DNA of 64,000 nt from a virus. This document shows, in pieces, positions 12,472 through 33,923 of the stretch. The DNA is taken from IMG/VR virus record IMGVR_UViG_3300037882_001257, positions 62,001-126,000 of that record, one strand, 5' to 3'. Each line of letters starts with the position of its first letter. Position 1 is the stretch's first letter. The notes below the pieces were generated by a model. It searched no databases. It saw only the letters and a program-made list of their open reading frames with translations, and had not been told where the DNA came from. The translations under genes were made by a program, and so were the position numbers.

Positions 12472-12810
12472 TTATTCAGCTTCCTTGTACAACTCTTTCA
12501 TCAGCGGAACACTAGAGGTCTTTGCTGCTGCTACAATAGCATTAACAAACTTATCTCCGTGCTGGCGATATTCTTTGTAGCTCATACTTCTACGTACATG
12601 TACGCGAAGGGCAAGCTTTTGCCACATATTAAGGTTCTTAGCTGTCTTAACAGCAGCTTCCGGGGTCTTTCTGCAAGCCTGAAGCACAGTAATAAGCTCA
12701 ACAATAATAGGGGCCAGAGTGAGAATAATGGAAGGGTCAAACGCCTGACCTTCCTTAATTACACCCATCTTTTTTGCTACTTCTACAGCAGCCTTTTCTG
12801 AAGCTTTCAT
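12472..12810 (-). CDS. Hypothetical helical protein
   Basis: The 112-residue protein is basic and helical, with a hydrophobic central stretch (SIILTLAPIIVELITVL) that could be a membrane or amphipathic helix. It is the last gene of the exported-protein operon, directly before a terminator. Confidence 0.6.
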   Translation of the reverse strand: MKASEKAAVEVAKKMGVIKEGQAFDPSIILTLAPIIVELITVLQACRKTPEAAVKTAKNLNMWQKLALRVHVRRSMSYKEYRQHGDKFVNAIVAAAKTSSVPLMKELYKEAE

Positions 12811-12821: not shown

Positions 12822-13268
12822 TTATCTAAAGAGGCGGTCGATTAGAAGGGCACGGCCAACATTACCTTGTTGCAATTCACGAGCAACTGCCGCTTCTAGG
12901 AAAATATCACGCGCATTGGCACCAACGCCAAGTCTAGCACGCACTAGGCGAGAACCGCGAACCTGAACAAACTGGCGAACAGCAAAGCGCTGTCTTATCG
13001 CACGACCAAACGCATCTCTAAGTGGTTGACGAGAAGCCTTTTCGCACACGCGACCGTACTGGTCAACATAAACCTCAACAACCTTCACTCTACGAACCTT
13101 TTGGCGTTGCTTTACAACAACCTTACGAACCTCTTGCTCTAGTTGATAGTCGTCATAACGAACTTCAACACGGGCAGGGGCAGCGTAGTCCGTAGCCAAC
13201 ACAGGGGCGCTCATAGCAATAGCTAGGATACCCGCAACAATACCGCTCAACACTTTATTTACTCTCAT
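12822..13268 (-). CDS. Secreted basic protein
   Basis: The preferred ATG at 13268 gives a Sec signal peptide (about 20 hydrophobic residues ending APVLA). The mature part (about 120 residues) is unusually rich in R and V, with repeated Q-R-V stretches and a single C. It is probably periplasmic or extracellular and may bind a polyanion. Family unknown. It overlaps the cytochrome gene. Confidence 0.65.
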   Translation of the reverse strand: MRVNKVLSGIVAGILAIAMSAPVLATDYAAPARVEVRYDDYQLEQEVRKVVVKQRQKVRRVKVVEVYVDQYGRVCEKASRQPLRDAFGRAIRQRFAVRQFVQVRGSRLVRARLGVGANARDIFLEAAVARELQQGNVGRALLIDRLFR

Positions 13269-13929
13269 TTTCATCAACCTTTCTTACCCAAGCTTCAATT
13301 AGCTTGGATTCTGTATCTGACATCTTTTTGTTTGACTTTGGCATCCTACCACTTTCTACTGCGTCACTGATTCTCCACCAGTCCGCTATCGTAAATGGCT
13401 TGTCGTTTCGAGTCATTGAGGCAAAGTTCCAAAACTTTGTCTTTTTCTCGGTAGCGTCGTGACAACTTGCACAATTATATTTTTCTAACAGGGCTGAGAC
13501 ATCAACAGGAACTTCAATAGAAGTAGTCTCTGGTTCCTCTGGCTCAGGTTCCGGCTCGTCATCAGGTGGAAGGGTTGTTACCGGAGCCTTGCGAAGTTCT
13601 TCTGCAATCTTACTGGCAAAATAATCCAACTTTTGACCAACCCTCTCGGCAATCTTTTCAGCTAGAGCCTCTTCGTCAATGCCTCTCTCTAGCTTGTAGT
13701 AATAATCGGCGTGGAAATCAGTAACGGGAACAGCAATAGCTTTTACAATTACTTCTTTCACTATGTTTTGATACTGGAAATCAGCTACAACTTTTCTATT
13801 AGCGTAGATATGACTGTGCTTCTCTAGACTTCTACGCACAGCGCAGTCAGTGTTATAGTTAGTTGCCATGCCGACTGTTGAAAAACACAGGGCGATAGCC
13901 ATTGTTAAAAAGAGTGTTAGTTTGCCCAT
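13255..13929 (-). CDS. Exported c-type cytochrome domain protein
   Basis: A Sec signal peptide covers residues 1-22. A helical region (80-115) and an acidic P/E-rich linker (120-138) lead to a C-terminal cytochrome c domain. CASCH at residues 153-157 is the covalent heme site, and GRMP (Met 196) is a plausible axial ligand. This domain layout resembles planctomycete-type cytochrome c modules. It should be matured by the host cytochrome c system in the periplasm. It overlaps the genes on both sides. Confidence 0.8.
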   Translation of the reverse strand: MGKLTLFLTMAIALCFSTVGMATNYNTDCAVRRSLEKHSHIYANRKVVADFQYQNIVKEVIVKAIAVPVTDFHADYYYKLERGIDEEALAEKIAERVGQKLDYFASKIAEELRKAPVTTLPPDDEPEPEPEEPETTSIEVPVDVSALLEKYNCASCHDATEKKTKFWNFASMTRNDKPFTIADWWRISDAVESGRMPKSNKKMSDTESKLIEAWVRKVDENESK

Positions 13930-15632
13930 ATTGTTTCCAGGATGTGTTTTGGTACAAGAACAGCTTTTAGGTGATTTAACGAACCGTAGAATACACCGTT
14001 TTCGGTAGTTCCCTCACTATAAATATACACCGTGGAACCGCGAGGGATTACAATAGACCCCGAAACTACGTAGTCTTGCGTTGTTTTAGCCTGATATGAT
14101 TGAAATTTCATTCCGTTATACCAAGTCGCAGTAAACCACACTTTTTGACGATGTTGCTGCACTTTTTCCTTAACAACAACTTCTTTAATTTTCACCAACT
14201 TAGAACGATAGATTAGTAGCATAGATTCTACAAACACACTACTATCACCAATCTCCCAGGCGTCTCTTGGAACGGCAAAACCCCTGTGTAAACCCGTCAA
14301 AGTAGCATTAGCAGAACCTTTAGTATGATATTGATATGCATCAATAGTCACACCGGATGTTCTTGCGGCCTGCTCTAGGTCCAGCGGTGCATCGTACCAA
14401 TTCAAAAACTTATGTAGGTTAGCCACTAACTCATTAGGTTCCCAGCCAGTATCGCGCTTTACTGCATCCGTATAAAGAATGCGATAGAATTCAACCTTCT
14501 TATTAAAATTACGCAGGTAGAAAGATGCGTGTCTATCCAGCTCTTTCTTGTCTTCAAAATTTAGACTTATTTTCTTGCCTAGAAGTTCTGAAAGCCTATT
14601 TGGCGCTGTGTTTAATCCGGTGGCGTGGCACGACATACAACTGACAATCATACGCACTCTAACATCGTCAGACTGACCAGAAGTATCAACAACTACTGTC
14701 GGGTCTCCGAAGTTTACAGCTTGTTCATTGGCGGCTTTACCATTGCCGAAAGCGGCCAACCAGTAGGCTTGCCACTGTACTCCATTTGAAGCTATAGCCT
14801 CAGATGCGTCTCTATCAGGGCGGGATAGTACGGGGTCTAGATTATCAATGTATCTACGAAGTCCGTTCTTATTGTCATTTGTTTCTGCGTAATATCCCAG
14901 GTCTGTGCCGGTTACGGCAATCTGTCTCTCATTGCGGGAAACCGCTGATTGGCCCCTAGGAATGATGGTTCCAATTGCCTGACCAAAAATGTTTACTCTC
15001 TTATCATTGACTCCCCATATAGCTCGGAACTCTGCTAGGGTTTTTGGAGGACCGCCCAGGTTAGAATAGAGCAAGATTGGCCCGATTGGCTCTAGGCCAA
15101 CATCTTCGGGCTTCATATAGTCTAGAATGTTAGCAATAAACCAGCTTCCACTGACTATAGAATTCCCACCGATAAGACGCAGTTCAGCCGCGTCTACATT
15201 GTTAATCCAAGGCTCTCTGAAATACGGGTCTTGAAGGGCGATAATTTCCCAGGCTTCTCTGTTCCAGTTATAGTCTCTGATGTTCCCGTAGAACAATGTC
15301 TTAGACCCAGGGACTAACCGCGCTACAGCCGGTCTATTTCCAGCGCTGTGGCTTAGAATAGAAGCGGTTAAAAGCCGCTCGCCACTATCGAGTAACTCTG
15401 GCGGAACGTCGTACAGACTCCAAAAGACAATGTCTTTTCTATCATCCTCAAACACAAAGTATTTTAGGAAATGAAGAGCATGGAAATGTTCGGAGTTAGG
15501 CGAGACGGTTTCTCCTTCAACAGTCCTAGGAACAGGTACATGAATAACATTAGATTGATATTCTTCCCCGTCAGCCCCAGTTCCTAAGCACAGAGACATT
15601 ATCATCGCTAATAATATCAACAGCTTTTTCAT
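13917..15632 (-). CDS. Large exported protein with one c-type heme motif
   Basis: This 571-residue protein has a Sec signal peptide (1-22, ending GADG). A long N-terminal region has no motif I can name. CMSCH at residues 332-336 is a heme-attachment site. A C-terminal region (about 490-560) looks like an SH3-type beta domain. The family is not recognised, but single-heme large cytochromes of this kind occur in environmental bacteria. It lies between the metalloprotease gene and the small cytochrome gene. Confidence 0.75.
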   Translation of the reverse strand: MKKLLILLAMIMSLCLGTGADGEEYQSNVIHVPVPRTVEGETVSPNSEHFHALHFLKYFVFEDDRKDIVFWSLYDVPPELLDSGERLLTASILSHSAGNRPAVARLVPGSKTLFYGNIRDYNWNREAWEIIALQDPYFREPWINNVDAAELRLIGGNSIVSGSWFIANILDYMKPEDVGLEPIGPILLYSNLGGPPKTLAEFRAIWGVNDKRVNIFGQAIGTIIPRGQSAVSRNERQIAVTGTDLGYYAETNDNKNGLRRYIDNLDPVLSRPDRDASEAIASNGVQWQAYWLAAFGNGKAANEQAVNFGDPTVVVDTSGQSDDVRVRMIVSCMSCHATGLNTAPNRLSELLGKKISLNFEDKKELDRHASFYLRNFNKKVEFYRILYTDAVKRDTGWEPNELVANLHKFLNWYDAPLDLEQAARTSGVTIDAYQYHTKGSANATLTGLHRGFAVPRDAWEIGDSSVFVESMLLIYRSKLVKIKEVVVKEKVQQHRQKVWFTATWYNGMKFQSYQAKTTQDYVVSGSIVIPRGSTVYIYSEGTTENGVFYGSLNHLKAVLVPKHILETIWAN

Positions 15633-15640: not shown

Positions 15641-16807
15641 TTAACCTTCTTTCACATCAAATACCAAGTTGTCGCCGGTAACAGTGAATGTAACTGTTTT
15701 GGTCCTCGGTTCTGGTGGAGGAGGCGGTGGTGGTTCAGAACCAATAGTAATTACAAATTCATTGGAGAATCCAGAGAAGATGTTATCTCCAAATGCTCTC
15801 ACCTTATATGAGTAGGTGCCGTCAGCTACATTACTATCAGAAGCTACTTTAATCCCTCTTTTTACCTGCCCAAACTTTACTCCGTTGCGCCAAACTTCAA
15901 ATCCGTTTTCTCCAGAGGAATTATCCTTCCAACGAAGTATGGCTTTTCCATCTTCGTGAGTGACTGTTAAGTTTGTAGGTGCTGTTAACACTTTTGGGTC
16001 TCCTGGTGGTGGAGGCGGGTCAACGGGGCCGGGGCCTGTAGCATTGCCATATATTGCACGAATGCGAGTAACGTCATCGTTATTTTGAGGTTTGACAATG
16101 TTCGGGCTGTAAAAAGGGGCCATTAGGGCGCTAGACTCGTTAGAGTGTTCAAGACCCAACAAGTGGCCTATTTCGTGGCAGGCAACATTACGTAGATAAA
16201 TACCACGGTTGGCACCCACCTTAGTCCATGTTTCATCCTCATCAAATCGCATCAAGAGTTGCCCCTTGAAGTTTTGTTGGGGTGGTAGAAAGGCGTAAGC
16301 TAGAGTGTTACCAGGACCGTCAAAATCATCGCGTGCGCCTCGCCCCGTTGAAATTACGAGATTAGCCCCGGATGTACTATCTACCTTAGAAAAGCGCAAG
16401 CTGCAAATGTCTTGCCAACTGTCGAAGGCTTCTTTTATTATACTGTCCCACTCGCCCTGTGGCAAGTCAGAGTCGCGTTTTTGTATGAAGTACGTCAAAT
16501 CCTTTACACCCCACGCCCTGACGCTGGCGCGAGCCTCAAGCATACCCCTGTCGGACACACCACATCGAGGCCAGCTTTTCATGGCATTGAGAGTGTTTGG
16601 GCCAAGCTCACCGTCAACTTTTAGAGCGCCAGTAATTTTCTGGAGCTTAGTCAGAGCTTCTACCACATCTTCAACGGTGATAGTGCCTTCTTTTGTAAGG
16701 TATCCATAGTGTTTCAGCCAGTCTATAGCTTCCAACACTTGGTCTGCGGTAGTTGCCCACTGGCGAAACATTTCGACCAGTTTTAGAATTGTCTCAATAC
16801 GGCCCAT
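15641..16807 (-). CDS. Matrix-metalloproteinase-like protease with cysteine switch and FnIII domain
   Basis: The 388 residues follow the MMP order. A peptidoglycan-binding-like propeptide (about 48-77) ends in PRCGVSD (80-86), the cysteine-switch motif. The catalytic domain has HEIGHLLGLEH (211-221, HExxHxxGxxH) and a Met-turn ALMAPFY. A P-rich linker (264-268) then joins an FnIII domain (275-355), a second proline run and a short C-terminal beta segment. No signal peptide is visible, so export would need another route or lysis. It should be a latent zinc protease activated by removal of the propeptide. Confidence 0.9.
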   Translation of the reverse strand: MGRIETILKLVEMFRQWATTADQVLEAIDWLKHYGYLTKEGTITVEDVVEALTKLQKITGALKVDGELGPNTLNAMKSWPRCGVSDRGMLEARASVRAWGVKDLTYFIQKRDSDLPQGEWDSIIKEAFDSWQDICSLRFSKVDSTSGANLVISTGRGARDDFDGPGNTLAYAFLPPQQNFKGQLLMRFDEDETWTKVGANRGIYLRNVACHEIGHLLGLEHSNESSALMAPFYSPNIVKPQNNDDVTRIRAIYGNATGPGPVDPPPPPGDPKVLTAPTNLTVTHEDGKAILRWKDNSSGENGFEVWRNGVKFGQVKRGIKVASDSNVADGTYSYKVRAFGDNIFSGFSNEFVITIGSEPPPPPPPEPRTKTVTFTVTGDNLVFDVKEG

Positions 16808-20259: not shown

Positions 20260-20837
20260 TAGAATGCCCCCAGTAAGACACTGGCATTGTCTAAGACAAT
20301 GATACCGGCCTCTAGCGTATTCTCTTTAATATAGATGTGCCTTGATTTACTATCGTCAACGCATATACATATACGTCTTTTATTATTAGGCAGTGAGGCA
20401 TCCAACTCATCTAAATAATATCTTTGCAAGTGTCTATTTAATAGGTTAAGAGATTTCAACCTGTCATCTAAGTCACAACTAATAGTGTCATCAACATATA
20501 TTTGGGCTATCTTGCCTTGTGTGCTAGGTAGCTTTTTACCTTCGTACTGAGGATAGTCATCCTGAGTAGAATCCATTAGGGCTATTAAACGACTAGAAAA
20601 CATATGGTCGGCTTCGCTATCGAACACAACTATGTTTCGGTCTACCGCAGCAGCCAATAGCACTTCCCAAGCAGAATTGACAATTTCTTCTTCGGATTTA
20701 TACAAATTCAAAAACACCCTAATTCTATTGTTATCCGGTGAAGAGTACGAGAAAGTATAGTTTCGTTCCACAACATCTACATAAGACGGTGTAGAGCTGG
20801 GAAGGTATGTTATTTCAAAAGGTAAACTATTGAGCAT
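20259..20837 (-). CDS. Hypothetical protein
   Basis: From ATG 20837 the product has 192 residues, is acidic and probably alpha/beta. It overlaps the lipoprotein gene by 11 bases. No motif recognised. Confidence 0.6.
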   Translation of the reverse strand: MLNSLPFEITYLPSSTPSYVDVVERNYTFSYSSPDNNRIRVFLNLYKSEEEIVNSAWEVLLAAAVDRNIVVFDSEADHMFSSRLIALMDSTQDDYPQYEGKKLPSTQGKIAQIYVDDTISCDLDDRLKSLNLLNRHLQRYYLDELDASLPNNKRRICICVDDSKSRHIYIKENTLEAGIIVLDNASVLLGAF

Positions 20838-21396
20838 TAGCTTCCTCTCCCAAGTCCATAAAATTAAGTTTCGACTTGCTAACAGGAATAGGTTGGTCGC
20901 TAAGAACAACTGTCAACCCACCTACAAACATTTGGTAATACTTACCACTGGCGTCGAACCAGAATAGATACTCAGACGAGTCTCCATATGTACCATCATC
21001 TTGTAGCAACTCAGTGGTTACATACCACTTACCGTTCACCTTAACATAGTCGCCATTATCAGCAATACCGGGTGGATTAACAGACCAGTTTACAGATTTG
21101 GGAGTAAGTCTCTTACCGCTAGATGAGACCTTACCCTTTACTGTAGAATAAACGAGAACGTCGCCAGTAAAGGGCGAGACTACATAAAGATGCTTAATTG
21201 ACCCAGGCTTGTTTTCTAGTTCAATTCGCTGCTTTATATTACGCTGTTCAGTGCTTAAACCGTCCGAACCCGTCTGGACACGGGCAGTTGCTTTAGTCAC
21301 ACCGGAATCAGACACCGCCTGTCTCGGTTCAGGGACACATCCAACGAACATAACACAGACCATCAAACCCGACAAAATTCCTTTAATCATTGTCAT
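20827..21396 (-). CDS. Lipoprotein
   Basis: A hydrophobic N-terminus ends in a lipobox (VMFVGC), so Cys 20 should be lipidated. The mature 170 residues are beta-rich. It is probably anchored in the host inner or outer membrane. Function unknown. Confidence 0.75.
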   Translation of the reverse strand: MTMIKGILSGLMVCVMFVGCVPEPRQAVSDSGVTKATARVQTGSDGLSTEQRNIKQRIELENKPGSIKHLYVVSPFTGDVLVYSTVKGKVSSSGKRLTPKSVNWSVNPPGIADNGDYVKVNGKWYVTTELLQDDGTYGDSSEYLFWFDASGKYYQMFVGGLTVVLSDQPIPVSKSKLNFMDLGEEANAQ

Positions 21397-21402
21397 TGTT
21401 TC

Positions 21403-21834
21403 CTACTCGCTAATAAGGGTGGCAAACTTTCCTGGTAAAGCCTGTTCTGACGCAGGCACAAAATCCACGTTCGTAAATCTGTAGTTAATTTTTTCCATGT
21501 TTGAATTGTATTCGCTCGCGAGCGAATTGTACGTCGCCTTAATACCAGCTCTTTCCCTGCGCCACTGATTTACTTGCTCTCTAATAGCAAAGCGTTCCGC
21601 ACCGCCCGTAGCCGTATCTAAGTCTCGCTCGGCCTCTTTAATCTGAGCGTTGTAAATCTCTACGTCCGCTTGTAGCTTAACCAAGACATTCGCAGCATCC
21701 TTAAACCACTCGTATCGTTTTAGGAGTGTGCTGGCCTTGGTTTCTTGGAACGCCGTTCGCTGTGCATCATCAATATACGCGCAGCAGCCGACGACGCCAA
21801 ATAATAGCGGAATCATCAGAACTAGTTTCTTCAT
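21403..21834 (-). CDS. Coiled-coil lipoprotein
   Basis: A signal peptide with lipobox (FGVVGC) is followed by a long helical region (about 25-115). The layout resembles small lipoprotein spanins or envelope proteins, but there is no second partner gene. An AAGGAG site precedes the ATG. Confidence 0.7.
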   Translation of the reverse strand: MKKLVLMIPLLFGVVGCCAYIDDAQRTAFQETKASTLLKRYEWFKDAANVLVKLQADVEIYNAQIKEAERDLDTATGGAERFAIREQVNQWRRERAGIKATYNSLASEYNSNMEKINYRFTNVDFVPASEQALPGKFATLISE

Positions 21835-24725: not shown

Positions 24726-24729
24726 AAAG

Positions 24730-24801
24730 TAGGGAATACAGGAATCGAACCCGTTTCGCAAAGGTCGAAGCTTTGCATGTTCTCCATCACACCCATTCCC
24801 C
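24730..24801 (-). tRNA. tRNA-Arg (TCG)
   Basis: The acceptor is GGGGAAT/ATTCCCT, the anticodon loop is CTTCGAC on a CAAAG/CTTTG stem, and the T loop is TTCGATT. CT follows the discriminator A. Confidence 0.85.
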
Positions 24802-24803
24802 AG

Positions 24804-25034
24804 TTAAATCTCTGAGTGGTTGACCTTTACTACGGTAGTAGTTGGCTTCACCATTTCTTCCTTGAAGAAAGCAATATCCTTCTTCTTAATCTTTGTTCCA
24901 TTCATTACTTTAGCAAACTTCTTGACTGCGTCAATGGCATCTTCAAGAGTTCGTTCCTGAAACCGCTCGTTTCCGTCTTGAAGCTGGCATTCACACCAGT
25001 AAAAACCGCACAGTAATTTAGTTATTCTATACAT
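24804..25034 (-). CDS. Hypothetical small protein
   Basis: ATG 25034 (MYRITKLL...) fits between two tRNA genes. The 76 residues have WCEC, a K-rich helix and a double-stranded-RNA-binding-like EDAIDAVKKFAKVMNG stretch. No family assigned. Confidence 0.6.
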   Translation of the reverse strand: MYRITKLLCGFYWCECQLQDGNERFQERTLEDAIDAVKKFAKVMNGTKIKKKDIAFFKEEMVKPTTTVVKVNHSEI

Positions 25035-25036
25035 AG

Positions 25037-25105
25037 TAGCCACGTTGAGAATCGAACTCAATTTTCATCCTTCGCAGGGACGAAGCCTTATCCATAGGCG
25101 CAGCT
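25037..25105 (-). tRNA. tRNA-Arg (GCG), tentative
   Basis: The acceptor is AGCTGCG/CGTGGCT and the T arm is perfect. The anticodon arm is best read as CGTCC/GGATG with a loop CTGCGAA; an alternative 6-base loop is possible. CT follows the discriminator A. It overlaps the next gene end by 2 bases. Confidence 0.6.
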
Positions 25106-25370
25106 AAACAAACTCTATTTCTATTCCAAGTTCCTCAGCCAACTTCTTTAGCTTATTGCGTTTCTCTTCCATTTCGCAATTAGGCTCGTTGTTCTTCTTG
25201 TCGTACTCTCTAGCTCTGTCCAACAACCGGCGAAACTCGTCAATTTCCTGCTGCGTTGGTAAAGCTGGCAATGGTACAACTGGATGAGTGACTACTGGTG
25301 TTATCTGAAATGGATAACGCTGTATCCACTCGTCATACTTATGGTCCATCACCATTGACATTACACACAT
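25104..25370 (-). CDS. Hypothetical helical protein
   Basis: The 88-residue protein has a proline-rich middle (TPVVTHPVVPLPALP) and a charged C-terminal coiled coil. No recognised motif. Confidence 0.6.
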   Translation of the reverse strand: MCVMSMVMDHKYDEWIQRYPFQITPVVTHPVVPLPALPTQQEIDEFRRLLDRAREYDKKNNEPNCEMEEKRNKLKKLAEELGIEIEFV

Positions 25371-25398
25371 AAACCATTTCCTTATTAAGCGAAGCTAG

Positions 25399-25470
25399 TG
25401 CCGAGTGCGGGAATCGAACCCGCGTAACTTGCGTATGAAACAAGGTGTAAAACCAACATTACAACTCGAC
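25399..25470 (-). tRNA. tRNA-Met (CAT)
   Basis: The acceptor is GTCGAGT/ACTCGGC, the anticodon loop is TTCATAC, and the T arm is GCGGG-TTCGATT-CCCGC. With CAT it could be elongator Met or, if lysidine-modified, an Ile tRNA. Confidence 0.85.
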
Positions 25471-25591
25471 TGGTAATTGTATCAACCCGCTATGGATTTT
25501 TCTGTGGCAATTTGCACATAAAATCACACATTTACTTATTTCCTCTACAATTCTAGCTTGACTAGCGCTACCTATCATTCGAGATTGGAAG
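25471..25591 (-). pseudogene. HNH endonuclease remnant between tRNA genes
   Basis: The minus strand encodes HFQSR then EEISKCVILCANCHRKIHSG, the C-terminal HNH block seen in the 26181 and 40170 genes. The N-terminal zinc ribbon and HH are missing: tRNA-Gly lies directly upstream. Its 3' end runs into tRNA-Met. It is the scar of a lost homing gene. Confidence 0.65.
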
Positions 25592-25665
25592 TGCGTTATA
25601 CGGGAGTCGAACTCGTACTAAAACATTGGAAGTGTTTTGTGCTGACCATTGAACACTAATAACGC
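25592..25665 (-). tRNA. tRNA-Gly (TCC)
   Basis: The acceptor is GCGTTAT/ATAACGC, the anticodon loop is CTTCCAA, and the T loop is TTCGACT. CT follows the discriminator A. It is the first product of the promoter at 25722. Confidence 0.85.
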
Positions 25666-25721
25666 ATAACCGAAACTGGCTTTTGCTTAAAGCGGGCGAC
25701 CAGTAAACCGCTCATTCTAGT

Positions 25722-25749
25722 ATTATACCTCGAAATCCGCCAGGGTCAA
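25722..25749 (-). promoter_or_regulatory. Sigma70-like promoter
   Basis: TTGACC, 16 bp, TATAAT with the CTGGCGGATTTCGAGG spacer. It reads into tRNA-Gly, tRNA-Met and the tRNA-Arg block. Confidence 0.8.
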
Positions 25750-25773
25750 GCCCCCTCGTTTATTTCTCTGATT

Positions 25774-25839
25774 TTATCGAGAGCCTTCTTTGTCTCGTGG
25801 CTTCACAACATCTTTTGTAGCCGGATGATACTCATACAT
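25774..25839 (-). CDS. Possible 21-residue small ORF
   Basis: ATG 25839 follows a good AGGAG site 9 bases upstream. The product is charged (21 residues). Only the RBS and position support it. Confidence 0.3.
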   Translation of the reverse strand: MYEYHPATKDVVKPRDKEGSR

Positions 25840-25842
25840 AGC

Positions 25843-26181
25843 TTATATCTCCTCTATCCTCTTTGACTTGTCATCAATTAGAAGGTCAAAATGCCCCTTC
25901 TGCTTTCCGCAAATCAACTCATCGAACCTACAGCCCCAAGACACTAACTGGTCCCAGGTGAAAGTGTAGTAGTCTTTACCGCTTACGCTGCCCCTGGCCG
26001 TCCAGTATATGATTTTCCATCCTTCGTCATAGAGCTTATTGATTTTAGCGATGTTCTCTGCGGAGGGAACAGCTAAGTCATACGCTCTACTAGCACCATA
26101 AAAACAAATGGTCTCGTCTATATCAACGAGAGCCACTTTTTGTTGCCCTTCGGGCGTTAGTTTATTGTGAACTTCGCTCAT
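25843..26181 (-). CDS. HAD-superfamily phosphatase
   Basis: LVDIDETI is HAD motif I (DxDxT), WTARG matches motif II, and DLLIDDKSKRI is motif IV. The 112-residue length suggests a capless phosphatase. Substrate could be a nucleotide or an RNA 3' phosphate; this is inference. Confidence 0.8.
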   Translation of the reverse strand: MSEVHNKLTPEGQQKVALVDIDETICFYGASRAYDLAVPSAENIAKINKLYDEGWKIIYWTARGSVSGKDYYTFTWDQLVSWGCRFDELICGKQKGHFDLLIDDKSKRIEEI

Positions 26182-26615
26182 TATGTTGCAGGACTAATAC
26201 CTAATTTTCTACCAGCGTGAAGTTTTCTATGACAGTTTGAGCAAAGAACCATACACTTTTCTATCTCTGCCCACAGCAATTTTCTACTTTTAGCAGTCAC
26301 CAAGTTTGCAATGTTATTTACTTTATCCTTGGTGTTTGTATGGTGAAAATCTAAACAACACGGGTCAGTTTCACCACAATATTCACAGCCTTTACTAGCC
26401 TTATAATCAGATACTTCACCCCTTAATTTCTTTACAGCAATACCAGACCTGTTCCAATATTCTCGTTTTCTTTCTCCCGTTAAAGACCTTTGGTGTCTTT
26501 TCGCACAGGCAATGTTACATTCTTTACACTTACCCTGCGCCCCATCCGCTCGTGATGAACTCTTATGAAAATCAGATAAAGGCTTCAGAGTTTTACACGT
26601 CGAACAGCTTTTCAC
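26181..26615 (-). CDS. HNH endonuclease
   Basis: The protein has an N-terminal zinc ribbon (CSTCKTLKPLSDFHKSSS...CKECN) and a C-terminal HNH fold (CEYCGETDPCCLDFHHTN then CMVLCSNCHRKLH). It is the same kind as the 40170 gene and the 25471 remnant. It overlaps the HAD gene by one base. Confidence 0.9.
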   Translation of the reverse strand: MKSCSTCKTLKPLSDFHKSSSRADGAQGKCKECNIACAKRHQRSLTGERKREYWNRSGIAVKKLRGEVSDYKASKGCEYCGETDPCCLDFHHTNTKDKVNNIANLVTAKSRKLLWAEIEKCMVLCSNCHRKLHAGRKLGISPAT

Positions 26616-26619
26616 GAAG

Positions 26620-26691
26620 TGCCCCTATTTGGACTTGAACCAAAATCTGTCGCTTTAAGAGAGCGCAATGTTACATTAACACCATAGAGGC
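26620..26691 (-). tRNA. tRNA-Lys (CTT)
   Basis: The acceptor is GCCTCTA/TAGGGGC, the anticodon loop is CTCTTAA with one mismatch at the top of its stem, and the T loop is TTCAAGT. CT follows the discriminator A. Confidence 0.85.
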
Positions 26692-26706
26692 AAAGTGGCG
26701 AAGCCA

Positions 26707-26898
26707 CTAACGAACTTTAGTGAGATACTTGTCTGAGACCCAAAATTCAGTTGGGCATCTAGTAAAACAAGCCACAGACACCAAGTAATCACCGTCGTTA
26801 GTAGCGGACTTGTCCACTATAGTTCCGACGATAGCCTTCTTAAGGAACCCGTCTTTATAGTCTACAGAAATCCGCACTTTGTCACCGTAATATAGCAT
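26707..26898 (-). CDS. SH3/KOW-like small protein
   Basis: The 63-residue protein has repeated short strands (DKVRISVDYK, IVGTIVDKSAT, YLVSVACF) as in small SH3-like phage proteins. A GGGC/GCCC hairpin overlaps the RBS and start and may affect translation. Confidence 0.55.
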   Translation of the reverse strand: MLYYGDKVRISVDYKDGFLKKAIVGTIVDKSATNDGDYLVSVACFTRCPTEFWVSDKYLTKVR

Positions 26899-26936
26899 GG
26901 GCTTAGCCCTTTCTTAATAAGTACAAAACAACAAAG

Positions 26937-27008
26937 AGCCGAGTAAGGGAGTCGAACCCTTTTTCCAATCTTACCAAGATTGAGTAATAACCGTTATACT
27001 AACAAGGC
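26937..27008 (-). tRNA. tRNA-Thr (GGT)
   Basis: The anticodon stem CAATC/GATTG holds TTGGTAA and the T arm is perfect. The acceptor GCCTTGT/ACTCGGC has two mismatches at positions 4 and 5, so folding may be weak. CT follows the discriminator U. Confidence 0.75.
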
Positions 27009-27010
27009 AG

Positions 27011-27181
27011 TCATACCCAGTAATTTAACCCATCCTCATCCTTAGCTGCAATACCAATTTTGTAATTTCTGTCGAGTGGTCTAAGTAACCATGTCACTAT
27101 TCTAGCCCACCACAGGAATCTAGTAGAGCAAACCACTTTGGCAGCACCACCTAAAGCCGGATAAATTAGGATTTCATACAT
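27011..27181 (-). CDS. Small hydrophobic protein
   Basis: ATG 27181 leaves the tRNA-Ser gene intact. The 56 residues hold one hydrophobic stretch (FLWWARIVTWLLRPL). It may be membrane-associated. Unknown role. Confidence 0.55.
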   Translation of the reverse strand: MYEILIYPALGGAAKVVCSTRFLWWARIVTWLLRPLDRNYKIGIAAKDEDGLNYWV

Positions 27182-27183
27182 AG

Positions 27184-27265
27184 CGGAGGACACGGGAATC
27201 GAACCCGCAACACCTTTCGGTGCAACTGCTTTCCAAGCAGCCTGCTTACCAGTCGCTTATCCTCC
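27184..27265 (-). tRNA. tRNA-Ser (GGA)
   Basis: The acceptor is GGAGGAT/GTCCTCC, the anticodon loop is TTGGAAA, and there is a long variable arm with CACC/GGTG. Discriminator G. CT follows. Confidence 0.85.
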
Positions 27266-27268
27266 AAG

Positions 27269-27321
27269 ACCCGCCCATTATGGCCGTCACCGACTCTCTG
27301 AATCGGGATAGGACCAGCGGG
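27269..27321 (-). other. Short tRNA-like structure, 53 nt, next to two GNRA hairpins
   Basis: A 6-bp terminal stem (CCCGCT against GGCGGG, one G-U pair) encloses a CCGAT/GTCGG hairpin, and CT follows the 3' base as in the real tRNAs. There is no T arm. Just upstream are hairpins with GTAA and GAAA loops (AGTTGC/GCAACT and CTGC/GCAG). It may be a decayed tRNA or a small structured RNA. Confidence 0.3.
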
Positions 27322-27377
27322 TGCTGCTTTCGCAGTCTCACAAAGTTGCTTACGCAACTGACATTTAAGGTGTTAGC

Positions 27378-27566
27378 CTAACCAACCGAAACCACCTGTG
27401 TCACAATACCGTTTTCGACCACTACATTGACTCTGCTGTTATGGGCGTCAGTCAAGGGTGGGGTCTTCACACCGTCTAGCTTAGCAATACGAAGCGTAAA
27501 ACCCTCTTTCTTGACGATAGCTTTTACTTCATCAAGTGTTCTACCAATTAGATGACTTCTCTTCAT
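27378..27566 (-). CDS. I78-like peptidase-inhibitor fold protein
   Basis: The 62 residues run LIGRTLDEVKAIVKKEG... to SRVNVVVENGIVTQVVSVG. This is the helix-strand layout and ending (R-x-N-V-x-V-x-N-G-x-I...G) of the I78/potato-inhibitor-I-like fold. It could inhibit a host serine protease. Fold assignment is by eye. Confidence 0.55.
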   Translation of the reverse strand: MKRSHLIGRTLDEVKAIVKKEGFTLRIAKLDGVKTPPLTDAHNSRVNVVVENGIVTQVVSVG

Positions 27567-28048
27567 TATTTGACAGCCTTTTTAAGAGCGGAAGGGCCTT
27601 CAACATCATCGAAAACGCGCAGCACTTCGTGGCTCACAAACTCAGGAGCAAGTGGAGCAGTCAAGTCACCAATCGAAAATTCATATGGGGCTGGCAGGCT
27701 ATCATACTTGCCATCGTTTGCCACTAAAACCGCATGGACGTGACCACCTTCAGGAACCTTAAAGGTTACTTCCGATACAGTTGCGGGAAAATCATAGACT
27801 TTCTCAACGCCTTCTGTTTCATCGCCCTTGTAGGTGAGAACAGTCAACTTTTGAGTCTTAACGTCTGGAGAGACGGAAGGAACCCAAAACAAACGTACTT
27901 CTGCTACTTTCATAAAAACTCCCTTTATTTGGTATGATAAATTTGTTGGTGGTTCGGGCGGGGTAAAATCGTAAAAATATAACAAGGTCCATAACACTGC
28001 TATAATAAGAGCAGTAATTCCAAACATGAATAACATTTCCACAAGCAT
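27566..28048 (-). CDS. Membrane-anchored FnIII-like protein
   Basis: The N-terminus has a hydrophobic helix (3-26), then PPEPPTNLS and a beta domain with VRLFWVPSVSPDV, typical of fibronectin type III. ATG 28048 has an AAGGA site. A second in-frame ATG at 27913 (MKVAEV...) also has a GGGAG site, so a shorter form without the anchor may be made. It overlaps the I78-like gene by one base. Confidence 0.65.
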   Translation of the reverse strand: MLVEMLFMFGITALIIAVLWTLLYFYDFTPPEPPTNLSYQIKGVFMKVAEVRLFWVPSVSPDVKTQKLTVLTYKGDETEGVEKVYDFPATVSEVTFKVPEGGHVHAVLVANDGKYDSLPAPYEFSIGDLTAPLAPEFVSHEVLRVFDDVEGPSALKKAVK

Positions 28049-28062
28049 GTTTTATTCCTTAG

Positions 28063-28130
28063 TGGACCGTATCGGTATCGCGCCGATTTTTCGACTTTGC
28101 AGGAGTCAAAATTAGACTTCTAAACAGCCC
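28063..28130 (-). tRNA. tRNA-Ala (TGC), C33
   Basis: The acceptor GGGCTGT/ACGGTCC has a G3-U70 pair, the main Ala identity element. The anticodon loop is CCTGCAA, so base 33 is C. The T loop is CGCGATA and the D arm is short, both unusual. CT follows the discriminator A. Confidence 0.7.
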
Positions 28131-28171
28131 GTCTCAAAACACGGGTCAGTCTCACAATCTCTTTCAAGCGA

Positions 28172-28432
28172 CTAAATAACAGGTAATACTAAACCAGCCC
28201 GCTCTTTCTTCATATTGTTTAGTCTACAGCTTAACTCGTCAACAACCATTTTCTTAGCTGCGTCAAAGTCTTTTCCGTAGACAAACACGGTAATAGCGCC
28301 TGGGTCTAGTACCACTTTCACATACTCAGTACCATTGGTAGATTCTAAAGCTTCTTCGGCGTATTTTATACGCTTATCTAAGTCTTTGGCCTTATCTAAA
28401 ACCGCCTGAGCTTCGTCTAAAATGTTTTTCAT
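28172..28432 (-). CDS. Hypothetical helical protein
   Basis: ATG 28432 ends 3 bases before tRNA-Ile. The 86 residues are mostly helical with a central strand (YVKVVLDPGAITVFVYG). No recognised family. Confidence 0.6.
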   Translation of the reverse strand: MKNILDEAQAVLDKAKDLDKRIKYAEEALESTNGTEYVKVVLDPGAITVFVYGKDFDAAKKMVVDELSCRLNNMKKERAGLVLPVI

Positions 28433-28434
28433 AG

Positions 28435-28507
28435 TGGGCAACCTGGGAGTCGAACCCAGCACAAGAAACTTATCAGGTTCCTCCGAACAACCAGTTCTGC
28501 GATGCCC
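28435..28507 (-). tRNA. tRNA-Ile (GAT)
   Basis: The acceptor is GGGCATC/GTTGCCC, the anticodon loop is CTGATAA, and the T arm is CTGGG-TTCGACT-CCCAG. CT follows the discriminator A. Confidence 0.85.
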
Positions 28508-28508
28508 T

Positions 28509-28835
28509 CTAAAACCCGTAATATGCCTTCTCAGCCTCAGACCAGTAGACTTCGTCTTTGCCGTCTGGTCCACCGTCGTCTTGCCACTTGTAGTAAGCTA
28601 CTTTAGCTACCTCATGGTCTCGATTAACTAACTCAAACATTACCGTATTAAATAATACACCCGGAGCCTCTGCAAGCTCGACTTCTGAGTGCCACCCAAA
28701 AGTTTGACTACCAGAGACAGTGTATGACTTACCTACCTCAAGATACTTGTCCGCAAGCTCTCTATGATAGTCAAGTCCATTCTCACCAAGATAGACTACT
28801 TTGCTCCCCTTGGGGAACCACTCACCAAATTCCAT
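28509..28835 (-). CDS. Paralogous WFPxGS-family small protein (copy 1)
   Basis: ATG 28835 follows GGAGGA. The protein of 108 residues shares WFPKGSKVVYLGENG, SYTVSGSQT and FNTVMFE with the 34466 gene (WFPIGSRVEFTGKGG, YTVVASRT, WNTVLFE). The two are clear paralogues of an unknown beta-rich domain. Confidence 0.65.
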   Translation of the reverse strand: MEFGEWFPKGSKVVYLGENGLDYHRELADKYLEVGKSYTVSGSQTFGWHSEVELAEAPGVLFNTVMFELVNRDHEVAKVAYYKWQDDGGPDGKDEVYWSEAEKAYYGF

Positions 28836-28870
28836 GAGACTGCGTCCTCCTAAAGTTATGAAATAACAAG

Positions 28871-28941
28871 TGGTCCTCATGGGAGTCGAACCCACAATGC
28901 AGGCTTGTCGTGCCTGAATGATACCATTTCAATAGAGGACA
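28871..28941 (-). tRNA. tRNA-Val (GAC), C33
   Basis: The anticodon stem CAGGC/GCCTG holds ACGACAA, so 33 is C. The T arm is GTGGG-TTCGACT-CCCAT. Position 1-72 is a U-C mismatch. CT follows the discriminator A. Confidence 0.7.
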
Positions 28942-28942
28942 G

Positions 28943-29017
28943 GGGTGAATAGCCAGGGTCGAACTGGCACTTTCTGGTTCACAGCCAAACGTGCAGAGCC
29001 GCTACACTATACTCACC
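28943..29017 (-). tRNA. tRNA-His (GTG)
   Basis: The anticodon loop is CTGTGAA and the T arm is GCCAG-TTCGACC-CTGGC. An extra G at the 5' end faces C at the 3' end, the usual tRNA-His feature. Confidence 0.85.
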
Positions 29018-29084
29018 ATAAATGCAACTACGGATGGTCCACTCCCGCACTTATCTGTCCCTTGACAGCTTCGTTAGTTGCAAG

Positions 29085-29155
29085 CATACAGTAGAGGATT
29101 TGAACCCCTTTGCGTCTGTGTTGGAGACAGACCGCACTCCCAGGTGCAACTGTAT
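29085..29155 (-). tRNA. tRNA-Trp (CCA)
   Basis: The acceptor is ATACAGT/ACTGTAT, the anticodon loop is CTCCAAC, the T loop is TTCAAAT, and the discriminator is G as for Trp. CT follows. Confidence 0.85.
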
Positions 29156-29162
29156 ATAGTGG

Positions 29163-29369
29163 TCAGCTTGCTGACCTAATCAACTCAAATCTCTTCGTAA
29201 ATGGAGCATATAGCTCAAAAACCGCTATACTTTCCACTTCTTTCCAGCTCTCAAAATATCCCTTAGCCCCACTAATAGCCCGCTCAAAAGCCTCATCACC
29301 CTTACCCTTGTAGTAACCGTGGTGGTGAGGCACACCGTTGATAACCGACACTAAGATGAAATTTTCCAT
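29163..29369 (-). CDS. Hypothetical small protein with leaderless-type start
   Basis: The ATG at 29369 lies only about 7 bases from the end of the TATAAT box, so the mRNA probably begins at or next to the ATG. The 68 residues have HHHGYYKGKGDEAFERAISGAKGYF. No family assigned. Confidence 0.6.
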   Translation of the reverse strand: MENFILVSVINGVPHHHGYYKGKGDEAFERAISGAKGYFESWKEVESIAVFELYAPFTKRFELIRSAS

Positions 29370-29375
29370 TTCCGA

Positions 29376-29403
29376 ATTATATACCCGTTTTCGCCAGTGT
29401 CAA
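29376..29403 (-). promoter_or_regulatory. Sigma70-like promoter
   Basis: TTGACA, 16 bp, TATAAT with the CTGGCGAAAACGGGTA spacer. It is immediately upstream of the ATG at 29369. Confidence 0.8.
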
Positions 29404-29419
29404 GAGGCCGCAGACAGCC

Positions 29420-29662
29420 TCACTTAAAATCTTTTGAGTCCACCAGCCCACATAACGCAGCAACAAAAATAGCCCCGGCGACCCCCAAACAAATCAGGAG
29501 AATCACCAAAATTATTGCCAGCGGAACCAAAGGCGCAAAAACCAACCACAGCGGGATGGCGGGCAAAACCCCACCAAACTTAAGGGTTGCTAGTACCACA
29601 AACATAATCAGCAGCCAGGGCGCTGTACATGCCACAACCGTAGTATTCTTAGACTTGCTCAT
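29420..29662 (-). CDS. Small membrane protein, two helices
   Basis: The 80-residue product is mostly two long hydrophobic helices (about 10-35 and 37-70). It could be holin-like in size and topology, but no lysin gene is next to it. Function unproven. Confidence 0.6.
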   Translation of the reverse strand: MSKSKNTTVVACTAPWLLIMFVVLATLKFGGVLPAIPLWLVFAPLVPLAIILVILLICLGVAGAIFVAALCGLVDSKDFK

Positions 29663-29675
29663 AGGTGTTTAGTGT

Positions 29676-29963
29676 TTACGTAATCAGTTTCTTTGAAGGG
29701 GGAGTTATAATGCCAGCCGCCTGAGCATGGTAGCTTTCAACTATTGCGACCAACTCTGGACTAGCCTCGCACGCCACTAAAATGTCACCAGCCAAATTAA
29801 CTTCCTGGTCTACGTCTTTAGCGAATTCGATAAAAGGTCGAAAAGCTATCTGTTCTCCATGAACATACAGAAAAAGTAGGTGACTATATACTTCGTCTTT
29901 AACATGAACACCAATTACGTCTCGTGGGTGTCCATCACGCAACTTCAAGTAGTGGATTTTCAT
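29676..29963 (-). CDS. Hypothetical protein
   Basis: The 95-residue protein has mixed alpha/beta content and overlaps the upstream gene by 29 bases. No motif. Confidence 0.55.
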   Translation of the reverse strand: MKIHYLKLRDGHPRDVIGVHVKDEVYSHLLFLYVHGEQIAFRPFIEFAKDVDQEVNLAGDILVACEASPELVAIVESYHAQAAGIITPPSKKLIT

Positions 29964-30282
29964 CAGCTTCGCCTTCCTGTGTGTTAAGTCCTGTTAGTCC
30001 AGCGAGTTCCCGAAGGGTACTCTCAAATCGTGGACCTTCTGGATGGTCCGTTTCCATCGTCAACAAATTTTTGTAGGAGTCGTATCCCTCGTACCACTGG
30101 TCCATTCGGAATTCAGAGGCGACAGGGGCCTTCTTAGGATGTAGTCTCCAGGCGGAAATCAAACCCTGTGTAAAGTATGCGGGTTCATAGCCCTCTGGTA
30201 GAGCAGGCTTCGTAAAGAGTGGTAATTCACCCTCTGCTTGCGGCTGTTCTACGACTTCATCCTCAAAAATAGTAGTTATCAC
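29935..30282 (-). CDS. Hypothetical protein (GTG start)
   Basis: A GTG at 30282 follows AAGGA. The 115 residues include an acidic N-terminus and a LYTKPALPEGYEPAYF-type proline-rich stretch. Unknown function. Confidence 0.55.
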   Translation of the reverse strand: MITTIFEDEVVEQPQAEGELPLFTKPALPEGYEPAYFTQGLISAWRLHPKKAPVASEFRMDQWYEGYDSYKNLLTMETDHPEGPRFESTLRELAGLTGLNTQEGEADENPLLEVA

Positions 30283-30303
30283 GCTGCGCGTTCCTTAATT
30301 GAG

Positions 30304-30378
30304 TGGCCTTTCGGAGAATCGAACTCAACGACTTTCAGTTTCAAAGACTGACGTGCAAAACCATTACACTAAAAGGCT
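30304..30378 (-). tRNA. tRNA-Gln (TTG)
   Basis: The anticodon loop is CTTTGAA on TCAGT/ACTGA. The acceptor AGCCTTT/AAAGGCC is open at position 1-72 (A-C), as is typical of weak Gln acceptors. CT follows the discriminator A. Confidence 0.8.
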
Positions 30379-30382
30379 ATAT

Positions 30383-30790
30383 TTACTTACGCTTCTTCAG
30401 CGCTTCTAGCACCTGTCTCGCATGTTCCAAATTGCCATAAGCGGAGTCTTTAACAGACTCACTATCTTTCAGGTCGTGCGAGGCTTGCTTTACCAAACTC
30501 TCTGCTACCGCGTAGGCTGATAGACTATCTTGATAGCCATTCTTTGCCTGTTCAAACTCTTCCTGAGCCGCCCGCACATCTGCTTGAGCCTTGAGCAATT
30601 CTATCTCAATGCCCAACTTTTCCGCTTCGTGTCTCTTAGTGTGTGCTTCCGATAGTGAAGCGGACGCATTTCTTAGTGCATGAACCGCGTTATTACGGGC
30701 ATCAGTTGCCTGTTTCTTAACGTGGCAAACGCTTGGTTTCCATGAAAACATTGCTAAAACCCTTTTAATGAAATCTTCGATTGTTGTCAT
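30383..30790 (-). CDS. Coiled-coil protein
   Basis: Residues 22-130 form a continuous A/E/K/Q-rich helical region. The N-terminus is amphipathic (MTTIEDFIKRVLAMFSW). It may be a scaffolding or membrane-peripheral protein. Unknown role. Confidence 0.6.
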   Translation of the reverse strand: MTTIEDFIKRVLAMFSWKPSVCHVKKQATDARNNAVHALRNASASLSEAHTKRHEAEKLGIEIELLKAQADVRAAQEEFEQAKNGYQDSLSAYAVAESLVKQASHDLKDSESVKDSAYGNLEHARQVLEALKKRK

Positions 30791-30823
30791 AAACTGCCCC
30801 TACGGTAAAAATAACTTGTTTAG

Positions 30824-30894
30824 TGGGCCATAAAAGAATCGAACTTTTTTCTTCTCGGTGTAAACGAGGGATTCTACCAGTGAACTAATGGCCC
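30824..30894 (-). tRNA. tRNA-Val (TAC)
   Basis: The acceptor GGGCCAT/ATGGCCC is perfect, the anticodon loop is TTTACAC, and the T arm is AAAAG-TTCGATT-CTTTT. CT follows the discriminator A. Confidence 0.85.
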
Positions 30895-30895
30895 G

Positions 30896-30968
30896 TATCG
30901 GCAACAGGAGTCGAACCTGCATGAGTCTTATCTTGAGTAAGACATGTCTCCATTTGCATCATGCCGAC
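30896..30968 (-). tRNA. tRNA-Leu (CAA), copy 1, short variable loop
   Basis: The acceptor is GTCGGCA/TGCCGAT, the anticodon loop is CTCAAGA on a 6-bp stem, and the T arm is perfect. The variable loop is about 4 bases where a long arm is expected. It ends 1 base from tRNA-Val and lacks the CT trailer. Confidence 0.75.
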
Positions 30969-30973
30969 ATAAA

Positions 30974-31053
30974 GTATCAACCTGAGTTAGTTGCCATCGA
31001 GCGCCCAAGTGTGGATGGCCCACAGTGGACTACAGGAACCCTGATGTTGATAC
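30974..31053. other. tRNA-like structured element, 80 nt
   Basis: An 8-bp terminal stem (GTATCAAC/GTTGATAC) encloses CAGG/CCTG and CCATC/GATGG hairpins. Size and place match a tRNA, but there is no T loop. It may be a decayed tRNA or structured RNA. Confidence 0.35.
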
Positions 31054-31055
31054 AG

Positions 31056-31129
31056 TAGCAGATAAGAGAGTCGAACTCTTAACCACAATGTTTTAAGCAT
31101 TGCCGCACTGCCAATTAGCGTAATCTGCC
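31056..31129 (-). tRNA. tRNA-Leu (TAA), short variable loop
   Basis: The acceptor is GGCAGAT/ATCTGCT, the anticodon loop is CTTAAAA on CAATG/CATTG, and the T arm is perfect. The variable loop is 5 bases. The D arm (GCTAATTGGCAGTGC) is shared with the next two tRNAs. CT follows. Confidence 0.8.
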
Positions 31130-31133
31130 AGAG

Positions 31134-31207
31134 TAACAGGTGAGGGAGTCGAACCCACAACCACGACGTTCTAAGCGTCGTTGCACTGCCAATTAGCATA
31201 ACCTGTC
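31134..31207 (-). tRNA. tRNA-Leu (TAG), short variable loop
   Basis: The anticodon loop is CTTAGAA on CGACG/CGTCG. The acceptor is GACAGGT/ACCTGTT. The variable loop is 5 bases. It is a close relative of the flanking Leu tRNAs, indicating tandem duplication. Confidence 0.8.
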
Positions 31208-31218
31208 ATTAATACTAG

Positions 31219-31292
31219 TACCACGTTGGCGATTCGGACGCCAATTCACCATTTTTTGAAAATGGCTGCATTACCAATTAGCATAACGTGGC
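31219..31292 (-). tRNA. tRNA-Leu (CAA), copy 2, short variable loop
   Basis: The anticodon loop is TTCAAAA on CCATT/AATGG and the acceptor is GCCACGT/ACGTGGT. The T stem TGGCG/CGCCA has loop TCCGAAT. It shares the D arm of the TAA and TAG tRNAs. Confidence 0.8.
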
Positions 31293-31307
31293 ATTACTTC
31301 ACTTAAT

Positions 31308-31335
31308 ATTATACCCCGAAACCCGTCAGAGTCAA
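31308..31335 (-). promoter_or_regulatory. Sigma70-like promoter
   Basis: TTGACT, 16 bp, TATAAT with the spacer CTGACGGGTTTCGGGG. It drives the Leu tRNA block and lies inside the end of the 31309 gene. Confidence 0.85.
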
Positions 31336-31560
31336 GTCGATTTCATTAGCCCAGGGAATTAAAAGTGGTTCTTCCCTATGTCCACAAGCTATACACCCTA
31401 CCGAAGCAATTCCAATACACAAACATAGACTATCCGTGTTAATAGCACCACAGTTAAGACATGCGGACGATGTGATGCATCCTCCCCATTCCATTCTACA
31501 CTTAGTATTAGCCAAGTTGTACTCTTGGGGGTTGTCAGTATAGCCAGTTATGGTAATCAA
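31309..31560 (-). CDS. Cys-rich zinc-binding small protein (TTG start)
   Basis: A TTG at 31560 follows GGAGG and overlaps the upstream TGA. The 83 residues include CLNCG, CLCIG and CIACGH, probably a zinc ribbon. A longer GTG start is possible. The last codons overlap the Leu tRNA promoter. Confidence 0.55.
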   Translation of the reverse strand: MITITGYTDNPQEYNLANTKCRMEWGGCITSSACLNCGAINTDSLCLCIGIASVGCIACGHREEPLLIPWANEIDLTLTGFGV

Positions 31561-31772
31561 AAATCCTCCAAATACCACTGTCCTTCGTAGGTCTTTATAT
31601 ATGTCTTAGCACAATAATCACATTTAAATTGTACGTCTGTTTCCCAGTACCACCCATGCCAACAGTGGTGTTCGGGTTCCAGGCAGCGTACAACATGCCA
31701 CTGATGAACATGAAAGCCGCTAGCACTAAGGATAAAGTTCCATATTTCTCTAATCAATGTAGAACGGCCCAC
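31557..31772 (-). CDS. His/Cys-rich small protein
   Basis: The 71 residues have HVHQWHVVRCLEPEHHCWH and CDYC, suggesting a zinc site. It overlaps both neighbours. No family. Confidence 0.6.
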   Translation of the reverse strand: MGRSTLIREIWNFILSASGFHVHQWHVVRCLEPEHHCWHGWYWETDVQFKCDYCAKTYIKTYEGQWYLEDF

Positions 31773-32340
31773 TCAATGTTGCTGTCTTAGCTGCGTCAAG
31801 TATCGTTAGTAAAGTTCCGTCACAAGCGTAAAAACCCTGCTTCGTGTATTTTATAAGCCTACGAAGCGAAGCCTGAACATTGCCTATTTTATGGACTCTT
31901 AATCGTTTACGCCCAAGGTCATACAGTGTCCAAGGACCAACCCATATGTCCTTACCGTCTGTTATGAGTTGACAGTTAGTATAGTCAAAGTCATCAATCA
32001 CCTTTTCAGGTGACTCCCAGACTTTGTGGATTAACTGTACCTTAAGCCCATTAGTAACAAACGTGGTGTTGTGTGGCCTGACATCCCGACTATCGCCATG
32101 TGATTCAATCAGGTTCGCGGCTATATCTAGATAGCCCTGCCCCTTAAAGAATATGTCAAAGTCACTATCTAAAGGTTGACCAAGAACAGTCCTTCGCAAT
32201 GCCCCGCCGCCTAGCCAAGTTCCCTCGTTCAGAAGGACTCGACCGAACAGCTTACCATGCAGTATTTCATACAACGGAGTCTGAATATACGGCTTACCAG
32301 TAGTCTGCCAAACAAAATCTTCAAGGTCATACTTAAACAT
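31750..32340 (-). CDS. Nucleotidyltransferase-fold protein
   Basis: GTWLGGGALRRT followed by LDSDFDIFF is the G-G...D-x-D motif of the pol-beta-type nucleotidyltransferase fold. The remaining sequence (about 120 residues) has a KTGFYACDG end. ATG 32340 overlaps the upstream TAA (TAATG). The substrate is unknown; a tRNA or antibiotic-type substrate is possible. Confidence 0.75.
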   Translation of the reverse strand: MFKYDLEDFVWQTTGKPYIQTPLYEILHGKLFGRVLLNEGTWLGGGALRRTVLGQPLDSDFDIFFKGQGYLDIAANLIESHGDSRDVRPHNTTFVTNGLKVQLIHKVWESPEKVIDDFDYTNCQLITDGKDIWVGPWTLYDLGRKRLRVHKIGNVQASLRRLIKYTKQGFYACDGTLLTILDAAKTATLSGPFYID

Positions 32341-32597
32341 TAGCATTCGTCCTCAGACACCAAGCGAAAATTGTTCGTATGTCTCATTGTTTCAATATGC
32401 TGGTCTTCCATTGACACTAACATACAATGGCCCGCCTGTGGATAGTGTTCGGTAATAAAGGTGAACAGAGTCCACGCTCCACTACCATATCCCAACGACC
32501 CATAAAATTTAAGCTTATGTTGCTCTGGAAGATTTTCCCAAAATTCTTTATTTAGAGTATCAGGGTCAAATACTACAGTATCACCTAGCCTAAACAT
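32340..32597 (-). CDS. Hypothetical small protein
   Basis: The 85-residue protein starts MFRLGDTVVFDPDTL, an SH3-like opening, and has several His and Cys. It overlaps both neighbours. Confidence 0.6.
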   Translation of the reverse strand: MFRLGDTVVFDPDTLNKEFWENLPEQHKLKFYGSLGYGSGAWTLFTFITEHYPQAGHCMLVSMEDQHIETMRHTNNFRLVSEDEC

Positions 32598-32812: not shown

Positions 32813-32813
32813 T

Positions 32814-33260: not shown

Positions 33261-33269
33261 TGGCTTTCC

Positions 33270-33560: not shown

Positions 33561-33562
33561 AG

Positions 33563-33633
33563 TGGGAATGGAGAGAGTCGAACTCTCGTGTCTCTGTTTT
33601 ACAGACAGTACCCGCCAACCGTGCGTCACTCCC
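33563..33633 (-). tRNA. tRNA-Tyr (GTA), short variable loop
   Basis: The acceptor is GGGAGTG/CATTCCC, the anticodon loop is CTGTAAA, and the T arm GAGAG-TTCGACT-CTCTC is perfect. Bacterial Tyr tRNAs have a long variable arm; this one has about 5 bases. CT follows the discriminator A. Confidence 0.75.
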
Positions 33634-33920: not shown

Positions 33921-33923
33921 AAG

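Follow-up and report, generated by a model that had tools for sequence, protein, structure and literature searches.

The window, i.e., the whole stretch of 64,000 nucleotides analysed here, corresponds to bases 62001-126000 of a virus record of 126,482 bp. Its viral signatures are a tape measure protein, a phage DNA polymerase, and a ribonucleotide reductase (RNR), and it carries 34 tRNA genes and one tmRNA. A tight minus-strand operon runs from position 16807 to position 12472 and encodes, in this order, a matrixin protease, a protein of 571 aa, a protein of 224 aa, a third exported-looking protein, and the product of a fourth small gene. The features are the following:

15641..16807, minus strand: matrixin gene, upstream in the same operon (PG_binding_1, cysteine switch, matrixin (M10) domain, and C-terminal extension)
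16550..16570, minus strand: PRCGVSD, MMP-type cysteine-switch motif, located by alignment to pro-MMP-1 (PRCGVPD in MMP-1)
16145..16177, minus strand: HEIGHLLGLEH, zinc site of the matrixin
13917..15632, minus strand: large, putatively haem-binding protein of 571 aa (signal-peptide-like N-terminus, unnamed domain of ~430 aa, one CxxCH, V/K-rich C-terminal extension)
14625..14639, minus strand: CMSCH haem-attachment motif, residues 332-336 of the large protein
13255..13929, minus strand: small cytochrome c of 224 aa, as predicted (signal-peptide-like N-terminus, linker, C-terminal class I (PSCyt1/CBB3-like) domain)
13459..13473, minus strand: CASCH haem-attachment motif, residues 153-157 of the small protein
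13342..13344, minus strand: Met196 (GRMP), likely axial ligand in the small protein
12822..13277, minus strand: third exported-looking operon protein, 151 aa, with a V/K-rich stretch VRKVVVKQRQKV, as in both cytochrome proteins
12472..12810, minus strand: fourth small gene downstream, 112 aa, assigned to the operon by position only

The large and the small CxxCH genes overlap by 13 bp, and the N-termini of their products (MKKLLILLAMIMSLCLGTGADG and MGKLTLFLTMAIALCFSTVGMA) are signal-peptide-like according to a simple rule. The initial annotation had described two CxxCH proteins with signal peptides in a phage operon, and the open reading frames (ORFs) and their signal-peptide-like N-termini were recovered at the stated place. 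Among the 110 ORFs of the window, a V/K-rich motif (VKEVIVK, IKEVVVKE, VRKVVVK) is found in just three consecutive exported genes (12822-15632), against 0.18 expected in shuffles for a motif that was picked post hoc; stretches resembling it are also present in other viral small cytochromes. Elsewhere in the window, two lipoprotein-like genes with lipobox-type N-termini lie side by side (20827-21834), followed by a dense tRNA array (24729-41413) and a block of glycosyltransferase/NDP-sugar epimerase-like genes (42116-49911). The relatives of the RNR and of the RNA ligase indicate mixed hosts, and thus no host is claimed.

Six of the window's ORFs contain a CxxCH motif, against 0.33 expected from residue shuffling. 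The other four are small and devoid of signal peptides, and three of them are HNH/zinc-like (e.g., CANCHFKIHAG): CxxCH alone is insufficient to diagnose a cytochrome. The motifs of the operon pair are more than chance because of homology. Indeed, the motif is invariant throughout the large protein's family (43 of 43 non-redundant members), and the small domain finds its match in the cytochrome domain that lies ahead of the large one in bacterial relatives.

A tblastn search of 50,697 phage records with the large protein gave a single relative, in LR756511 (a 595-kb genome), where the gene directly downstream encodes a small CxxCH protein with RMPP. The first viral scans, for which the query was either the window protein by itself or an alignment of two sequences, gave no matches; later alignment-based searches brought the number of virus records carrying the large and small pair to 15, the window included and contig L122 excluded (it bears a fused, bacterial-type copy). 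All 15 have the small gene immediately behind the large one, with spacing ranging from a 64-bp overlap to a 78-bp gap, and terminase genes support the viral nature of several of these records. Its presence in 15 or more virus sequences marks the pair as a module that viruses maintain rather than a chance occurrence. The view of the initial annotation that phage c-type cytochromes are rare is wrong within this virus group. Three viruses also have second copies of the large domain, which stand alone without a small partner.

Homologues exist in bacteria as well as in other viruses. In bacteria, the large domain occurs in a plasmid protein of Neorhizobium, at 70 genome loci, and in paralogues added later, which span Alphaproteobacteria, Planctomycetota, Verrucomicrobiota, Bdellovibrionota, and Myxococcota. 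At every one of the 85 bacterial loci examined, a single polypeptide carries a PSCyt1/CBB3-type domain followed by the large domain, and about 360-415 residues separate the two CxxCH motifs. The viral small domain aligned to the fused bacterial cytochrome domain with an hhalign score of 89.7 (E 1e-17), compared with 29.7 and 38.4 for the other cytochrome domains that these proteins carry. This match, together with the bacterial fusion, shows at the sequence level that the two window genes correspond to the halves of a single two-haem cytochrome, split apart and with the gene order reversed. Thus, the claim of two cytochrome proteins stood as regards a c-type pair, but the two are not independent proteins. 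In the trees, all virus rows fell on one side of one branch (support 100/100), with the caution that the window, L112, L087, and L113 are long branches.

The surroundings of the viral pair differ among records. In the group formed by L002, L008, L089, L090, L109, and L120, the gene after the pair encodes an exported, low-complexity protein rich in A/G/V/Y, and members of an exported family (alignment A12) are encoded upstream; these flanking proteins probably belong to the cassette in that group. A search of 199 Planctomycetota genomes for the upstream exported protein of this group gave no hit. The large-domain family itself is present in just 4 of 199 genomes from this phylum (that of Lacipirellula), and Planctomycetota are not claimed as host. 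For L111 and L121, baseplate genes next to the cassette had been suggested by eye; PHROGs did not support them, and the idea was dropped.

The small protein is a predicted His/Met class I cytochrome c domain of PSCyt1/CBB3-like type. Its CxxCH is present in all 15 viral and 85 bacterial domains, and GRMP (M196) sits at the class I Met position, where a Met is conserved in 14/15 viral small proteins (L112 has KCPP instead) and 85/85 bacterial domains; this supports the Met ligand that had been called plausible. In the proposed Pfam comparison with cytochrome c/PSCyt families, the best score of the window's small protein, which is PSCyt-like, was 19.2 bits, under the cut-off of 27, and the large protein had no Pfam match at all. 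A viral small homologue, L120, passes the Pfam CBB3 cut-off with 34.4 bits. The small domain had no significant match among PDB sequences.

In the large domain, Tyr189, Arg236, and Glu278 (window numbering) are invariant. No further His, Met, or Lys column conserved at 70% is retained by the window; one Lys column exceeds 70% in the overall alignment and is missing from all virus rows. Within the viral set, the large protein of the window ranks with the most divergent copies, and given the conserved residues lost at the R69, N93, N235, W249, and G286 positions, its activity may be altered. AlphaFold gave a fair model of it (pTM 0.74) and a confident model of a fused relative as one unit (pLDDT 84, pTM 0.82). 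Foldseek returned no match below E 0.1 for the two models against the PDB and for one against BFVD, and the large protein had no Pfam or NCBIfam match to the CCP/MauG family.

Taken together, these data make it probable that the operon encodes a split two-haem c-type cytochrome pair, exported to the host envelope, matured by the host, combining a relay with a reactive haem and belonging to a single virus lineage. Homology, the split versus the fusion, motif conservation, the single virus branch, and the operon layout are what can be read in the sequences; from these, we infer haem binding and its coordination, the interaction of the halves, and redox enzyme activity. Both proteins are predicted to be exported into the host envelope, where the His/Met haem of the small protein would act as an electron relay to the large protein. 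The haem of the latter, held on one side by the CxxCH histidine, is probably a reactive centre, peroxidase-like or thiol-oxidising, because it lacks a conserved second ligand. No PF01578 Ccm-type gene was found in the window's virus record or in nine others (ten in all), so maturation should come from the host, as the initial annotation had anticipated, and the host Ccm or Ccs machinery would attach the haems. The cassette would be inherited along one virus lineage and, judging by position, co-transcribed with the protease. Its most likely use would be periplasmic redox chemistry late in infection, possibly controlling the neighbouring protease.

What this chemistry would serve can be read in more than one way. 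The pair could be a respiratory or detoxifying auxiliary gene, i.e., a periplasmic carrier or peroxidase for host energy or peroxide removal, with no role for the protease, and we regard this as possible, if rather unlikely. A His/Met relay with an open-haem partner recalls the logic of di-haem peroxidases, and a ferric-reductase-like gene adjoins 51 of the bacterial relatives. There are also precedents: a phage c-type cytochrome is already known as a kind from SoxD (Kieft et al. 2021, PMC8190135), and multihaem cytochromes occur on Borgs (PMC9605863). However, the pair resembles no named cytochrome enzyme in sequence, CCP/MauG and SoxD included, and no other respiratory gene was noticed nearby. 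In the bacterial loci L009-L069 (Rhizobiales, Rhodobacterales), a recurrent operon comprises a tetrahaem cytochrome, an exported caspase, an OmpA-like protein, and a ferric-reductase-like protein.

Another reading takes the protease into account: the haem pair would sense or make an oxidant and thereby control the thiol-dependent protease encoded beside it. The alignment of the window matrixin to human pro-MMP-1 (PDB 1su3) covers pro-domain, cysteine switch, and zinc site (E 1.4e-35); the viral protein contains a Peptidase_M10 domain with the HExGHxxGxxH zinc site, and its switch, PRCGVSD, differs by one substitution from the PRCGVPD of MMP-1 and stands behind a PG_binding_1 pro-domain. In predicted layout, the protease thus resembles an MMP zymogen, although we do not file it as an MMP. 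It had no relative in the 50,697 phage records. A homologous matrixin gene occupies the same upstream place in L113 (E 1e-33), with a weaker one in L112, and the switch Cys-Gly is kept in all three viral matrixins. In a raw tally, 12 of the 15 virus records have a protease close to the cassette: it is matrixin-like in these 3, papain-type and at that same place in 7 others, and C39-like in 2. The C39-like peptidases, in L118 and L119, are about 2-3 kb from the pair and on the opposite strand. A stand-alone CxxCH large domain directly adjoins an exported C39-like cysteine peptidase in three viruses (L087 5728-7631, L123 4096-5904, and L124 3194-4950).

Among the bacterial relatives, a caspase (C14) was found in 55 of the 85 loci, on the same strand as the cytochrome gene in 56 of the 57 measured loci and with a median gap of 968 bp, despite whole bacterial genomes having only 2-12 C14 genes. 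Many of these caspases have signal peptides. With the PADLOC defence models, the Neorhizobium caspase was the only match.

The proteases adjacent to the cassette all depend on an oxidisable cysteine, which suggests, but does not prove, redox gating. The cysteine switch of MMPs is open to oxidative activation. Furthermore, the redox control of papain-family and caspase thiols has been reviewed (PMC7226053). On the other hand, the viral matrixin (N-terminus MGRIETILKLVEMFRQW) and the papain-type proteases have no evident signal peptide, whereas the cytochromes do, so that the partners may not meet before lysis; moreover, three virus records have no protease nearby, and four unrelated protease folds could reflect coincidence or hitchhiking. 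We therefore consider such control of the protease doubtful. A wider proposal, a haem-protease partnership common to bacteria and large phages, in which a two-haem protein of new fold would switch on, or be read by, thiol-dependent proteases (caspases in bacteria; MMP-like cysteine-switch, papain-type, or C39-like ones in viruses), with the virus using it in the host envelope or at lysis, seems to us unlikely.

Finally, CxxCH as a zinc or structural motif that binds no haem, as the HNH/zinc-like ORFs of the window and the weak Pfam scores might suggest, is very improbable in view of the export signals, the class I Met ligand, the fusion, in relatives, to genuine cytochrome c domains that clear Pfam cut-offs, and a large domain with no further conserved Cys or His to complete a zinc site.

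The split two-haem cytochrome pair is thus the reading we retain, as a c-type cytochrome module that an entire lineage of large viruses has kept and that is built on a haem-domain family with no name, Pfam model, or known structure. Among open-licence PubMed Central papers, the searches brought up no description of the split pair, of the unnamed haem domain, or of how it is conserved in large viruses. Two questions become testable: whether viruses use host cytochrome maturation for envelope redox chemistry, and whether the haem-protease neighbourhood that keeps recurring, with caspases on the bacterial side and an MMP-style cysteine switch in a phage, functions as a true regulatory circuit.

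Comparison with known systems places the pair among several partial likenesses. Like phage SoxD (PMC8190135), it is a c-type cytochrome encoded by phages; SoxD, however, belongs to another family and pathway, and copies of it are reported to miss the cytochrome c motifs, which are invariant in the family of the window pair. With the bacterial di-haem cytochrome c peroxidase and MauG, the pair would share the logic of a relay haem and a reactive haem, but not sequence, and the large domain had no PDB relative in the searches made. The upstream protease is like eukaryotic matrix metalloproteinases in its PG_binding_1 pro-domain, switch, and zinc site, but it is phage-encoded, shows no evident signal peptide, and has another C-terminal part. 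The small protein resembles PSCyt1 and Cytochrome_CBB3 (PF07635, PF13442) in its CxxCH, GRMP-type Met, and W near the C-terminus, while the window copy scores under the curated cut-off and is encoded as the partner of a large domain. There is also likeness to the unnamed fused cytochromes of bacteria (Neorhizobium petrolearium WP_227705619.1; Lacipirellula, Rhizobium, and Nannocystis), which have the same two domains, CxxCH motifs, and key residues in one chain, ordered small-large, whereas the viral version is split, reversed, and placed on a branch of its own.
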